DNA of 64,000 nucleotides from Bdellovibrio sp. 22V (lineage in GTDB: Bacteria > Bdellovibrionota > Bdellovibrionia > Bdellovibrionales > Bdellovibrionaceae): NCBI RefSeq assembly GCF_030169785.1, contig NZ_CP125854.1:558001-622000 (forward strand). The letters run 5' to 3'. Position numbers and translations under genes: made by a program. Under the pieces are notes generated by a model. The model was not told the DNA's origin, did not search any database, and saw nothing but the letters and a program-made list of their open reading frames with translations. This document shows, piece after piece, positions 3,389 to 36,173 of the stretch. The first letter of the stretch is position 1, and every line of letters begins with the position of its first letter.

Positions 3389-3838
3389 TTACTGGAGTTC
3401 ATTCGTGCAATACACAGAAGCTCTTTGTGCATTCGGCGGATAACTCATGCTCTGAGCGATGCGTTTGCATTGCGAAGCCGTGATCGCTTTGTTGAAGCGA
3501 CGCAGACATTCCCAACGCGCTTCATCACCTGTATCGGGAAATTCCATGGCTTTAGAAATCGCAAAGCACTCTTTTAAAGTCGGCTGCTGGCGAAGATCGT
3601 AAAGGCACAGCAAGCGTGCCTCTTCGGCGTTTGTTGAATACTCCATGGATTTCGCAACCTGCAGGCATTGGGCAGGACTTAATTGCGCTTTCTTTTGTTT
3701 AAGGCACTGCAGGCGCAGATCATCTCTTTGATCCATCGCCAAGCGGGTGGTCTTAGGAACCACGCAAAGACCCTTTGCTTGAGCAGAAAATGTAAAACCG
3801 GTCGTAAGAAGTAAAACCACCAACATCAGCTTGCGCAT
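3389..3838 (-). CDS. Small exported protein with tandem Cys-containing repeats
   Basis: I do not recognise this family. From ATG 3838 (AGGGAAA ribosome site upstream) it encodes 149 residues with a clear signal peptide MRKLMLVVLLLTTGFTFSAQA. The mature part is three or more copies of a unit of about 34 residues with the pattern CxxIAxxMxYPxxAxxARxxCL: AQCLQVAKSMEYSTNAEEAR, then KECFAISKAMEFPDTGDEAR, then SQCKRIAQSMSYPPNAQRAS. Two cysteines per unit suggest disulphide-stabilised helical hairpins in the periplasm, similar in idea to Sel1-type repeats but without their consensus. Longer in-frame starts (to 3871) would put 11 residues before the signal peptide and are less likely. Confidence 0.7.
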   Translation of the reverse strand: MRKLMLVVLLLTTGFTFSAQAKGLCVVPKTTRLAMDQRDDLRLQCLKQKKAQLSPAQCLQVAKSMEYSTNAEEARLLCLYDLRQQPTLKECFAISKAMEFPDTGDEARWECLRRFNKAITASQCKRIAQSMSYPPNAQRASVYCTNELQ

Positions 3839-29577: not shown

Positions 29578-30999
29578 ATGAGAGCCATGGACGTGCAAAC
29601 TCTTGTGAAAGTGACGGGAGCGCAAACTCTCAGTCTTCAAGAAAAAAACTTTTCCGGCATTGGTACTGATACGCGTGTGGATTTGAAGGGTCAGCTTTTT
29701 ATTCCTTTGAAGGGCGAGGCTTTCGATGCGCATCAGTTTTTGGATAAAGCTGTTCAGCAAGGGGCCGCAGGTCTGCTTGTGCACGAAGAAAATGAACAAG
29801 TGCAAAAGCTCAAAGGCAAGGTCACGATTCTTAAAGTTCCTGATACGTTAAAAGCTTTGCAGCGTCTGGGGACATGGGCTCGCCGTGAAGCGCGCGCAAA
29901 GGTCGTGGGTATCACGGGCTCTAACGGCAAAACAACGACGAAGGAATTCACGGCGGCACTTGTCGGTTCCGTAAAAACCGTTCACTACAACAAAGGCAGT
30001 TTCAATAATCATTGGGGTGTACCGTTTACTTTGTTGCAACTGCCGCCAGATAAAGACGTGGCGGTTGTCGAGATGGGGATGAATCACGCCGGTGAAATCA
30101 CGGAGCTTGTGCATATTGCAGAACCCGACGTTGTTGTCTGCACGATGGTCGGCCGCGCACACATGGAATTTTTTGGCACGATCGAAAAAGTTGCGGAAGC
30201 AAAGGCCGAGATCTACGAAGCGTCTTCTCCTGAGACCGTTCGAATTTACAATCTTGACAACAAACAGACGCACAACATGTATGTGAAGGCTCTTGAGAAA
30301 TATCCGAAAGAAAAAATCCTGACGTTCTCTTCCGAAGATCCGCGCGCGACGGTGCACTTGATGATCAGCTCAATGAACATGAGCGAGCTGACTGTGAAAG
30401 GTGTGATCGGCGGTAAAGAGGGCACGGCACAAGTGCAAGTCTTCGGCGCACAAAATTTAACGAACCTGATGGCGGCTGCGAGCATTGGTCTGGCAGTGGG
30501 TATGACGCCGGAGCAAGTATGGAAGGGTCTTCCTGCTTGTAAAACAAACTGGGGCCGCAATCAGTTGGTGCATTTAAAGTCGGGCGCACAAATGATCTTC
30601 GACGCTTACAACGCAAACCCTGACAGCATGAAGGCGCTGATCGACAACATGAAGCTCTTAACAGTTTCCGGTCGCAAGGTCGGCGTCTTCGGTCAAATGC
30701 GCGAGCTCGGCTCTGCCTCTGCAAGTCTGCACGAAGAACTTGGCACCTGGGTTGGCGCTGCGGGTTTCGACAAAGTTTATTTCATCGGCGACGACTACGA
30801 TGCTTTCAACAAGGGCCTCACAAAAGCCGGCTACAAAAATCCATCATCAATTGAAAAAGACTACAAAGATTCTTCCGGCCAAGACCTCGCCAACTTCCTC
30901 AAAGAAGGCGACATCGCCGTCGTCAAAGCCTCCCGAGGCACAAAACTCGAACGCTTCGTCTTCCCCTGCAACCCCCTCGACTTCTCCGAAAAACAATAA
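29578..30999 (+). CDS. murF: UDP-MurNAc-tripeptide:D-Ala-D-Ala ligase MurF
   Basis: Adds D-Ala-D-Ala to the UDP-MurNAc-tripeptide. 473 residues. GITGSNGKTTTKEF (ATP loop), GSFNNHWGVPFTLL and MGMNHAGEI are diagnostic of MurF. The ribosome site GCAGGAGAG lies in the murE end. The stop codon is directly followed by a palindromic element (30998-31214). Ddl, which makes the D-Ala-D-Ala substrate, is not encoded in this window. Confidence 0.96.
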   Translation: MRAMDVQTLVKVTGAQTLSLQEKNFSGIGTDTRVDLKGQLFIPLKGEAFDAHQFLDKAVQQGAAGLLVHEENEQVQKLKGKVTILKVPDTLKALQRLGTWARREARAKVVGITGSNGKTTTKEFTAALVGSVKTVHYNKGSFNNHWGVPFTLLQLPPDKDVAVVEMGMNHAGEITELVHIAEPDVVVCTMVGRAHMEFFGTIEKVAEAKAEIYEASSPETVRIYNLDNKQTHNMYVKALEKYPKEKILTFSSEDPRATVHLMISSMNMSELTVKGVIGGKEGTAQVQVFGAQNLTNLMAAASIGLAVGMTPEQVWKGLPACKTNWGRNQLVHLKSGAQMIFDAYNANPDSMKALIDNMKLLTVSGRKVGVFGQMRELGSASASLHEELGTWVGAAGFDKVYFIGDDYDAFNKGLTKAGYKNPSSIEKDYKDSSGQDLANFLKEGDIAVVKASRGTKLERFVFPCNPLDFSEKQ

Positions 31000-31214
31000 A
31001 AGGTGCCTGCTTCTTTTTTCTGGCTACGCCGCGAAAAAGAAGCAGGAGAATTTTGCGATTTATCGAGTCCGAGACCAAACGGTCCGACGAGCAAGGCCGT
31101 CATTCGGCCAACGAATGCTCTAAATGCAAATACTCAAAAAGATTCCACTAAGATGTTCTCATATCACTAACTTTTTTCGCGCTGTAGCCAGAAAAAAGAA
31201 GCAGGCACCTTTTT
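30998..31214. repeat. 217-bp element with 30-bp inverted terminal arms
   Basis: The left arm (30998-31027) and right arm (31184-31213) are exact reverse complements over 30 bases; the complementarity continues with small gaps through the GCGCGAAAAAG region. Each outer end carries GGTGCCTGCTTC. The left arm alone can fold: CCTGCTTCTTTTT (31006-31018) pairs with AAAAAGAAGCAGG (31034-31046), giving murF a terminator-like hairpin. The about 135-base centre shows no credible ORF. It looks like a MITE- or REP-pair-like element; no transposase is present in the window. Confidence 0.7.
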
Positions 31215-32968: not shown

Positions 32969-34357
32969 ATGTATAAAGAGTTTAGCGATTTAAAAGATAA
33001 AAGAATCCTTGTAGTGGGTCTTGGTAAGACGGGAGCTTCGTTGGCTCACTTCCTTACAAAACACGGCGCTCAAGTGACAGTGACAGATCACAAATCAAAG
33101 CCAGAGCTTTCCACGCAGTTGGAGCAGTTGGGCGATCTGCCAATCAAGTTTGAGCTGGGCGGACACAGTCCGAAAACTTTCATTGCGCAAGACCTTGTTG
33201 TTTTGTCTCCGGGTGTTCCGAGCAATTTGAAAATCTTTGATTACGCTCGTTCACAAGGTATCAAGATCACGGGAGAGTTCGAATTCTCTGCGGGTTTCAT
33301 TAAAGAGCCGATCATTGGTATTACAGGTACCAACGGTAAAACGACTGTGGCGAAAATCACAGAAGCGATTTTGAAAGAGTCCGGCGTCAAAACATGGGTG
33401 GGCGGCGCGAATGAAAAACCGCTTGTTGATTACTTGCGCTCGGATGAAAAAGCTCAAGTTGTTATCGCGGAAGTTTCAAGCTTCATGCTTGAGCATTGCG
33501 ATACTTTCAATCCAATGAACATCGTGTTCACGAACTTGGCTGAAAATCACTTGGACCGTTATCGCTCTATGGAAGAGTACGTAAATGCTAAAAGACGTAT
33601 CTTCAAAAACACAAACCAAGCGACAACAAGCATCTTGAATGCCGACGACAACGCGGTTGTCGAGTTGGCGCGTGATCCAGCGGTTCAGCGCGGACGTATT
33701 TTCTACTTCTCGCGCAAACCGGCTTTGGAGCCGCAAATCATGAACATTGGTGGAGCTGTGAACATTGGCGATGAAATCCGTGTTCGCACAGGCCCCGAGA
33801 TCGAAACGTTCACAATCAAAAACATGAAAATGCGCGGTAAGCACTCTGTCGAAAACATCATGGCGGCGATCTTGGCATCGCGTGAACATGGTGCGACTCG
33901 CGATGCAGTTCAACGCGTGATCGACAGTTTCACAGGCCTTGCTCACCGTATTGAGTACGTTCGTAAAGTCGGCGGAGTTCTTTTCTATAACGACTCCAAA
34001 GCGACAAACGTGCACGCAGTTCTTCGCGCTTTGGACACTTTCGATGAAAACGTGATTTTGATCGCCGGTGGTAAAGACACCAACTTGAACTACGAGCCAC
34101 TACGCACGGCTGTGAAAAGAAAAGTAAAGACCTTGATCTTAGTCGGGGAAGCCAAAGAGCGTATCAATCGCGACCTTGGTGATTTCTCTGAGACGTTCTT
34201 GATCGGTACTTTCGAAGAAGCGGTTCTTATCGCTTACCAAAAGTCGAGAATCGGCGATACTGTTCTCTTGTCTCCAGGTTGTTCATCCTTTGACATGTTT
34301 GACAGTTTCGAAGAACGAGGAGATTATTTCAAAGAAATCGTGAGAAAGTTTCACTGA
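32969..34357 (+). CDS. murD: UDP-MurNAc-L-Ala:D-Glu ligase MurD
   Basis: Adds D-glutamate to UDP-MurNAc-L-alanine. 462 residues. Rossmann-like N-terminus RILVVGLGKTGAS, ATP loop GITGTNGKTTVAKI, then VFTNLAENHLDRY and the C-terminal FYNDSKATNVHAV and LIAGGKDTN, all typical of MurD. Six bases after mraY. A highly structured inverted-repeat element begins ten bases after its stop codon and separates it from the rest of the cluster. Confidence 0.96.
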   Translation: MYKEFSDLKDKRILVVGLGKTGASLAHFLTKHGAQVTVTDHKSKPELSTQLEQLGDLPIKFELGGHSPKTFIAQDLVVLSPGVPSNLKIFDYARSQGIKITGEFEFSAGFIKEPIIGITGTNGKTTVAKITEAILKESGVKTWVGGANEKPLVDYLRSDEKAQVVIAEVSSFMLEHCDTFNPMNIVFTNLAENHLDRYRSMEEYVNAKRRIFKNTNQATTSILNADDNAVVELARDPAVQRGRIFYFSRKPALEPQIMNIGGAVNIGDEIRVRTGPEIETFTIKNMKMRGKHSVENIMAAILASREHGATRDAVQRVIDSFTGLAHRIEYVRKVGGVLFYNDSKATNVHAVLRALDTFDENVILIAGGKDTNLNYEPLRTAVKRKVKTLILVGEAKERINRDLGDFSETFLIGTFEEAVLIAYQKSRIGDTVLLSPGCSSFDMFDSFEERGDYFKEIVRKFH

Positions 34358-34366
34358 GTCGGACGG

Positions 34367-34497
34367 TTCTGCCGTTCCTCAAAGGGCCTTTAGCTTACCC
34401 TTCGGCTTCGAACAGTCCTCGCGGACGCCTCCCTTCGGGAGAGCTGCTGCGGAACTTGCCGGCGGGCAAACTAAAGGCCCTTTGAGGAACGGCAGAA
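34367..34497. repeat. 131-bp perfect inverted repeat enclosing four small hairpins
   Basis: Outer arms 34367-34393 and 34471-34497 are exact reverse complements over 27 bases. The 77-base interior holds four further short perfect stems: TTCG/CGAA (34401-34412), GTCC/GGAC (34415-34426), CTCCC/GGGAG (34429-34441) and TTGCC/GGCAA (34456-34469). As RNA this would be a multi-branched structure closed by a 27-bp helix; as DNA, a cruciform or palindromic repeat. There is no T-tract right after it and no ORF inside. It lies between murD and a lipoprotein gene in the dcw cluster. Confidence 0.8.
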
Positions 34498-34579
34498 GTC
34501 TTCCTCTGAAACTTTCAGCAATCATTGAAATAATTGAAATCTGTATGGATGCAGGTTGAGAATGCCTAGGAGGGCTATA

Positions 34580-34948
34580 GTGTTTTCGCAACGTCTTTTT
34601 CTTCTTTTAACGTCTGGAATGTTGTTTCTTTCTGGATGTGCTTCCGGAACTTTCAAAGCTCGTCAAGAGCAGCGCGAAAAAATGGCGTCTTCAACTGGGA
34701 TGTACTGTGAGTTCTTAAGTGGGGATATGTTTCCTGACTTGGATGTGGAACTTAGTATGTCGATGGCTCGTCGTTGTGATGCGAATAAAACTTTTTCGAT
34801 CACAAACTACAAAAACTCTTCGGATCAAAACGGTGTGATTTACTGCTGCTCTACACGCAGTCGTATGACAACTCAGACTCCAAAAAAGGCGACTCCAGCG
34901 AAAACAGAGTCTAGCGAAGCCTCTGATGCGGAAGTCATTTCCGAGTAA
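34580..34948 (+). CDS. Small lipoprotein inside the dcw cluster
   Basis: No family recognised. From GTG 34580 it encodes 122 residues: a signal peptide FSQRLFLLLTSGMLFLSGC with lipobox LSGC, then a short domain with several cysteines (GMYCEF, RRCDAN, IYCCSTRS) and a Ser/Thr/Lys-rich tail. The GTG is chosen because an ideal AGGAGGG lies five bases before it; the upstream in-frame ATG (34562) and TTG (34556) would put that site inside the coding sequence. It lies between murD and ftsW, where no lipoprotein is expected. Lack of spacing to ftsW (79 bases) suggests joint expression. Confidence 0.68.
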   Translation: MFSQRLFLLLTSGMLFLSGCASGTFKARQEQREKMASSTGMYCEFLSGDMFPDLDVELSMSMARRCDANKTFSITNYKNSSDQNGVIYCCSTRSRMTTQTPKKATPAKTESSEASDAEVISE

Positions 34949-35027
34949 AAAACCGGGTCCAGCTTTTAGTTAGGACATAGACGTAAAAAAGGACTTCTGA
35001 TTAAACTAAAGGTCGGGAGTTCTTTCT

Positions 35028-36173
35028 ATGTTGAGATATTTGTCCAGCAGCTTGTTTCTTGCGATTATCACGCTTCTTGGTATCGGACTTGTTCAGGTTT
35101 ATTCTTCCAGTTTCATTTTTGCGATTGAATCTTATGGTGATGGGCTTTTCTTTTTTAAGCGCCAATTAGTTTTCGCCTTGATTGCATTCGCAGTTCTGAT
35201 CGGAACGATTCACATCCCTTTTAAATACATCGAAAAATACGGCTGGGCTTTGTGGTTTGTCGCTACGATCGGCGTTCTCGCAACTTACGTTCCGGGATTG
35301 GGTGTTCGTGTCGGTGGAGCTCTTCGTTGGATTCAGCTTCCTTTCGGTATTCGTTTCGAGCCGGGGGAGTTGCTGAAGATCGCTTTCAGTGTGTGGTTTG
35401 CAAGCTTGCTTGTCCGTCGCGAAAATTTCTTGGCGAAAGTGAAATGGCATTGGCTGGTGCTGGCGATGATTGCTCCTCTTGGTCTTTTGTTAAAACAGCC
35501 TGACTTCGGAACATTTGCGATTATCCTCATGGTGGGCGTGACGTTGCTTTTCGCTTTCGGTCTGCAGTGGAAATATATTTTCGCGGCGCTGGCGGTTATG
35601 CTCCCGGCGTTTTATTTCCTTGTGATGTCTGTTCCTTACCGTCGTGCGCGCGTTCTTGCGTTCTTGGACCCGTGGTCGGATCCGGCGCAAAAAGGTTTCC
35701 AAGTGATTCAGAGTATGCTCAGTTTTCATTCGGGCGGCCTTACGGGAGCGGGCTTGGGACAAGGCCAAGGCAAACTCTTCTTCCTGCCTGAAGCGCATAC
35801 TGATTTCACGATGGCGGTTCTGGGTGAAGAAATGGGTTTCATCGGCTTCGTTTTGATTCTTGCCCTTTATGGCTTCGTGGTTTTCCGCGGAATTCAAATC
35901 GCGGTCAAAACTGAGGAGACCTTTAAAAGATCTTTGGCGTTGGGTTTATCAGTGACTTTTGCTCTGAGTGTCTTTATCAATGCCGGGGTGGTAATGGGCT
36001 TGTTGCCAACCAAAGGTTTGACACTTCCATTCCTCAGTTATGGCGGCAGTTCCCTTGTTTCTTTGTGTTTTATGTTCGGTCTGATCCTAAACATTGAAAA
36101 TTCATTGGAAGAAGATAAATTTTCACGCCGTTTTGGCTCTCGATGGACAACGTCAAAGGTGAAGAATTCATGA
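35028..36173 (+). CDS. ftsW: Septal peptidoglycan glycosyltransferase FtsW
   Basis: SEDS-family membrane enzyme that polymerises lipid II together with FtsI. 381 residues with about ten membrane helices. Conserved SEDS features: GGALRWIQLP, KQPDFGTFAII (with the essential Asp), PYRRARVLAFLDPWSDP, FLPEAHTDF, EEMGFIGFV and PFLSYGGSSLVS. It overlaps murG by four bases. A GGGAG precedes its ATG. Confidence 0.96.
   Translation: MLRYLSSSLFLAIITLLGIGLVQVYSSSFIFAIESYGDGLFFFKRQLVFALIAFAVLIGTIHIPFKYIEKYGWALWFVATIGVLATYVPGLGVRVGGALRWIQLPFGIRFEPGELLKIAFSVWFASLLVRRENFLAKVKWHWLVLAMIAPLGLLLKQPDFGTFAIILMVGVTLLFAFGLQWKYIFAALAVMLPAFYFLVMSVPYRRARVLAFLDPWSDPAQKGFQVIQSMLSFHSGGLTGAGLGQGQGKLFFLPEAHTDFTMAVLGEEMGFIGFVLILALYGFVVFRGIQIAVKTEETFKRSLALGLSVTFALSVFINAGVVMGLLPTKGLTLPFLSYGGSSLVSLCFMFGLILNIENSLEEDKFSRRFGSRWTTSKVKNS

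Follow-up and report, generated by a model that had tools for sequence, protein, structure and literature searches.

The structure that follows murD in the analysed Bdellovibrio genome is probably one copy of a dispersed palindromic DNA core, mobile or selfish in nature, whose arms would be acquired and refreshed by fold-back copying of the adjacent flank. The copies have the core in common; their arms are specific to each locus and are copied from native flanking DNA. The element is present or absent between species and is found in a patchy set of phyla. On the best reading it is primarily neither an RNA gene nor a terminator, and its position between murD and ftsW is incidental.

Structure of the element downstream of murD

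The window, to which all positions refer, is the whole stretch of 64,000 nucleotides that was analysed, C1:558001-622000 of a 3.60-Mb, one-contig Bdellovibrio genome; all features are given on its + strand. The element begins 10 nt 3' of the murD stop codon (34355-34357). As first predicted, a structured interior is enclosed by exact inverted repeats of 27 bp, the left arm (34367-34393), on the native flank side, and the right arm (34471-34497), its inverted copy. When extended inwards, the arms (34367-34406 and 34458-34497) are 90% complementary across 40 bp and leave a loop of 51 nt. The window holds two near-perfect inverted repeats of at least 40 bp with a spacer below 250 nt, this element being one of them.

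The predicted minimum folding energy (MFE) of the element is -84.8 kcal/mol, as compared with -46.0 +/- 3.8 kcal/mol for 200 dinucleotide shuffles, none of which reached so low a value (z = -10.2); an order beyond chance, already suspected, is thus borne out. The four independent inner hairpins of the original prediction were replaced, in the MFE fold, by one long interrupted stem with a single apical hairpin, CTCCC-TTC-GGGAG (34429-34441). This hairpin is the only part of the interior with clear covariation among relatives, its letters varying while pairing is retained, and its loop is a triplet (TTC, TTT or GTT), not a UUCG tetraloop; TTC or TTCG-like loops had been proposed for two of the hairpins.

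A conserved core was located at 34403-34462, the only match (70.4 bits) of covariance model R1, which was built on 29 Bdellovibrio cores, this one included. It contains motif 1, ACAGTCCTCGC (34412-34422), fixed across the element family, and motif 2, GCTGCGGAACTTGC (34446-34459). The lack of a T-tract was confirmed, and no terminator-like site was found on the + strand within 34200-35100. The element had been placed between murD and ftsW: murD does lie upstream, but a small lipoprotein-like ORF (34556-34948) intervenes before ftsW, which starts at 35028.

A dispersed family with a common core

A search of the same genome with the whole element returned a second copy, matching in the interior only, and searches with two interior motifs returned six clear copies plus one interrupted copy beside tRNA-Arg, so that at least seven are present. 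The two-motif pattern was matched 125 times, in 22 of 24 Bdellovibrio genomes, and its reversed control not once. Many copies with the same interior were thus found in this and in related genomes, which identifies a repeat family. Among the natures first considered (structured RNA, palindromic mobile repeat, DNA-binding site), the mobile repeat comes closest, given these copies at differing loci and their presence or absence between species, except that the arms are not conserved.

For the analysis of arms and cores, 121 Bdellovibrio elements were extracted. All share ACAGTCCTCGC and GCTGYGGAACT, within a common architecture in which ACAGTCCTCGC is followed by an apical hairpin or loop and then by GCTGCGGAACT. 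The middle of the core comes in three forms: a short hairpin, as at the murD site, a medium loop and a long loop. The conserved part of the element is the core alone, about 50-110 nt. Arms are present in 120 of the 121 elements (median 33 bp) and are Watson-Crick paired at 3689 of 3846 positions (96%), yet their information content is mostly below 0.2 bit per position, a near-zero sequence constraint. At orthologous loci they differ between species and remain palindromic; conversely, the core type may switch while the arms stay alike, as at tRNA-Leu(gag) (L002 vs L144/L157). The arms, which had been taken as the signature of the element, are local host sequence with its inverted copy, different at each locus.

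Elements tend to lie 13-25 nt past gene ends, in mixed orientation relative to the neighbouring genes, and 59 of 79 are co-oriented with the replication fork, a bias not taken as proof, since the counts include orthologs, are not independent and are confounded by gene orientation. Such a position past gene ends, together with the fork bias, could reflect a function, which would speak against a selfish core.

Two elements, L022 (G000, C1 near 1141500) and L070 (G007), are both interrupted at ACAGT^CCTCGC by a second multi-hairpin module, with TCCC..GGGACTA..CGCGAAAAA and a T-run in common. Inverted pairs of elements, 264-277 bp apart, were observed at one locus in G006, G002 and G015 and at another in G018 (L201, L202, L203, L126). 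In L135, L158, L164 and others, the loop of the long-type core contains a whole terminator-like hairpin with its T-run (AAGGGAGCC..GGCTCCCTTTTTTT).

Arms as inverted copies of the flanking DNA

At the murD site, inverted symmetry extends outwards to about 34323-34534 and reaches the coding end of murD (34323-34358, DYFKEIVRKFH stop), the probable source of the outer inverted duplication. Read as its reverse complement, 34504-34534 aligns with the murD end ATTATTTCAAAGAAATCGTGAGAAAGTTTCACTGAG and is a putative decayed inverted copy of it. The score of this match, 30.5, was reached in 3 of 3000 shuffles, while the 23 relatives devoid of the element yielded no comparable match (scores of 14-22.5, the background), although each of them conserves the murD end. 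Considered alone, this locus gives moderate support, at the sequence level, to an inverted copy of the murD end.

The same relation was found throughout the family. Residual inverted similarity outside the arms exceeds that of mismatched left/right pairs (p = 6e-11 for 97 Bdellovibrio elements), with 20% of the elements above the 99th percentile, and is also present, in weaker form, in other taxa. Examples of inverted copying reach into murD, into rplL and into a conserved transcript-like flank; at the rplL and L194 loci, a complete terminator with its T-run lies ahead of the element and is included in the inverted copy. In tRNA-linked copies the left arm includes the ACCA end of the tRNA, or more of it. 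Of 25 ortholog clusters, 23 show higher conservation of the left flank (5' of ACAGTCC) than of the right one (p = 3e-7), which indicates that the left side is normally native and the right one the copy. The clearest case of arms copied from the host is G240, a member of the Bdellovibrionales, where ten loci carry near-identical cores and nine of them have inverted arms of about 45-110 bp, all different.

The left flank of L194, L114 and L155 is a conserved, probably structured transcript (GGGGAGGGTGAGGAAGAGATCGCGAACCATGGA...ACTCCCC-T run), observed in ten Bdellovibrio genomes and without a match in Rfam. At L003 (G000, C1:235510) and L075 (G016), a 22-nt intergenic sequence resembles the left arm of the murD site (TTCTGCCGTTCC.CAAAGGGCC) and is conserved in another species; chance and common origin are both possible.

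Maintenance of arm pairing

In comparisons of related pairs, both partners had changed at 636 paired positions and a single partner at 171, as counted over overlapping pairs of related sequences and alignments of diverged arms, so that the counts are not independent. Transversions account for 62% of the double changes, which argues that change did not proceed mainly via G-U intermediates. Between L076 and L077, about 30% of the arm positions have changed, whereas the flanks are 95-97% identical. Among these overlapping pairs, changes of several bases were found matched in both arms, with no intermediates altered on one side only, as left by template switching. The changes agree better with one arm being copied from the other, by template switching (PMC8794818), than with gradual selection via G-U pairs, and selection for the hairpin could make an added contribution.

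The types of mismatch are strand-asymmetric, in Bdellovibrio and, independently, in other taxa. On the top strand, A.C and pyrimidine-pyrimidine types prevail over G.T and purine-purine ones, with 66 A.C against 20 G.U in the 121 Bdellovibrio elements and 94 against 32 in 85 elements of other taxa. This asymmetry suggests either that the other strand forms a single-strand hairpin or that a strand-specific process is at work. Both sets also show one recurrent mismatch whose distance from the core is fixed, at 12-14 nt in Bdellovibrio and at 15-16 and 24-25 nt in other taxa.

These data bear on the possibility that the element is a structured RNA, such as a 3' UTR stabiliser, an sRNA or a riboregulator, with arm pairing kept by selection on the transcript. 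Such an RNA would account for the very stable fold, the compensatory changes in the arms, the covariation of the apical hairpin and the frequent location just past the 3' ends of genes. We consider it unlikely, however, since the strand co-transcribed with murD is the one that tolerates A.C and pyrimidine-pyrimidine mismatches and not G.U, which does not favour this strand as the RNA of the original prediction. The predominance of transversions among double changes and the mixed orientation to neighbouring genes also argue against it, as do arms that pair with the ends of tRNAs and coding sequences, for which a 3' regulator has no need. Rfam, searched at gathering and at relaxed thresholds, contained no matching family; the single hit, to a miRNA, had an E-value of 2.4 and is attributed to chance.

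Gain, loss and distribution

Only the host genome has the element at the murD site. The 23 other Bdellovibrio genomes lack the element there, so that an effect on the balance of murD and ftsW expression, once suggested, is unsupported; relatives carry a short terminator-like hairpin at the site. The L102 site is empty in 20 of 24 genomes; three related genomes have one element in common, and the element of G033 runs the opposite way and is read as an independent insertion. For judging a target-site duplication, the only empty site in a fairly close relative is that of G015 at L102, which may be read either as empty or as a partial deletion and so gives no clean comparison of the states before and after insertion. 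Presence and absence between relatives, as in mobile elements, are thus observed.

In a scan of the phylum, the pattern was found in 25 of 369 genomes, namely the 22 Bdellovibrio genomes, a further one that has 19 copies and two that have a single copy; the control pattern did not occur in any of the 369. A scan of GTDB genomes revealed, among the matches listed, cores with arms in Adlercreutzia, Enterorhabdus, Slackia and other Coriobacteriia, as well as in Omnitrophota, Planctomycetes, Latescibacterota, Eisenbacteria and deltaproteobacterial genomes. The set from outside Bdellovibrio comprises at least 85 elements with clear arms; pattern matches devoid of arms, several of them from GC-rich genomes, seem to have arisen by chance and were excluded. 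The distant phyla have the same core, other arms and a patchy occurrence. In IMG/VR, one of five pattern matches (L330) is a convincing element, and adjoins a tRNA-Leu end.

This distribution has to be weighed against a reading without mobility, in which chance hairpins or terminators undergo ordinary quasi-palindrome correction and the core is a conserved protein-binding site. Template switching is an established source of perfect stems and keeps them perfect (PMC8794818), and the arms of the murD site contain CAAAGGGCC/GGCCCTTTGAG, also present in the terminator that HD100-like species have at this site. As in the element, template switching copies a neighbouring stretch in inverted form and goes with perfect arms and multi-base compensatory change (PMC8794818; PMC7202029), but it acts on any hairpin, whereas the Bdellovibrio element is tied to one core, repeated across genomes and phyla. 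We regard this explanation as improbable, because it leaves unexplained an identical core at unrelated sites and in unrelated phyla, differing core types at one ortholog locus, the near-identical cores with unrelated arms of G240, and the independent insertions.

Comparison with known elements

REP/REPIN elements, mobilised by a Y1 (RAYT) transposase, are similarly short, palindromic, dispersed in intergenic regions, presumed to form single-strand hairpins and sometimes arranged in inverted pairs (PMC3116915). The 264-277 bp spacing of the inverted pairs, and Y1_Tnp genes in 21 of the 24 Bdellovibrio genomes, would agree with an element of this type. REPs, however, conserve their stems, while here the stems are locus-specific host copies with near-zero information and the conserved part is the tip (compare PMC3116915). 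By coordinates, moreover, no element adjoins a Y1_Tnp gene; G007, G012 and G016 have elements and no Y1_Tnp match, and G004 and G005 the opposite. A link to RAYT is thus unsupported, and assignment to the REP/REPIN type appears very unlikely. At two Y1_Tnp loci a different repeat, GGTGCCTG, is found, and its inverted copies (L335:1358 and 2141; L340:1193 and 1983) bracket the matched RAYT-like region, so that the RAYT-linked repeat of Bdellovibrio is probably the GGTGCCTG repeat. A repeat of this type, found elsewhere in the genus, is also seen in the window just past murF (30998-31213), with 41-nt arms (95%, AAAAGGTGCCTGCTTCTTTTTT...).

That the element is the transcription terminator of murD is the least credible explanation, in spite of the short terminator-like hairpin of relatives at the same place, as the T-run that follows the GC-rich hairpin of an intrinsic terminator is absent and, at rplL and L194, a full terminator already precedes the element.

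Integron attC sites are single-strand hairpins recognised by structure, with fixed mismatches and free arm sequence, and in this resemble the Bdellovibrio element, in which neither RYYYAAC/GTTRRRY ends nor gene cassettes were seen. ERIC/MITE-like families conserve the whole unit, arms included, unlike the present element, whose copies have no shared ends and hence none of the common terminal inverted repeats of MITEs. These families are likewise small dispersed palindromes, as are hairpin-forming mitochondrial repeats (PMC2800124). Palindromes in mitochondrial coding sequences of Nematomorpha (PMC6649704) are long, perfect inverted repeats in or near coding sequence, with apparently homogenised arms and rapid gain and loss, but they are mitochondrial and have no common core. 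The open-access literature yielded nothing relevant on the motif or on Bdellovibrio intergenic repeats, where another name may have been used, and the element is apparently undescribed so far. Its kinship is broadly with small dispersed palindromic elements, and from those considered here it is set apart by stems made of host DNA; there is a fair chance that it represents a new class.

Proposed mechanism and implications

A mobile or selfish core with copied arms could arise as follows. The core would fold on a single DNA strand, and a growing strand, having copied the left flank and the core, would snap back at the core, copy itself outwards for tens to about 110 nt, and then rejoin the template. 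Through repeated fold-back events, the inner 25-40 bp would stay almost perfectly paired as the outer portion decayed. The core itself may spread as a small non-autonomous or selfish element, through an enzyme acting in trans. More tentatively, and with somewhat less than even confidence, we propose a new class of selfish DNA, present in many phyla, in which the mobile part is the tip of a hairpin and the stem is built at each site by DNA synthesis primed back onto the host flank, each insertion being a local inverted duplication.

If this is right, a common and overlooked element accounts for many perfect intergenic palindromes and provides a natural, repeated record of fold-back DNA synthesis, and strong compensatory change in a stem need not imply a selected RNA. 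The presence, within one lineage, of near-identical cores with fresh arms of 50-110 bp makes the insertion mechanism directly testable.
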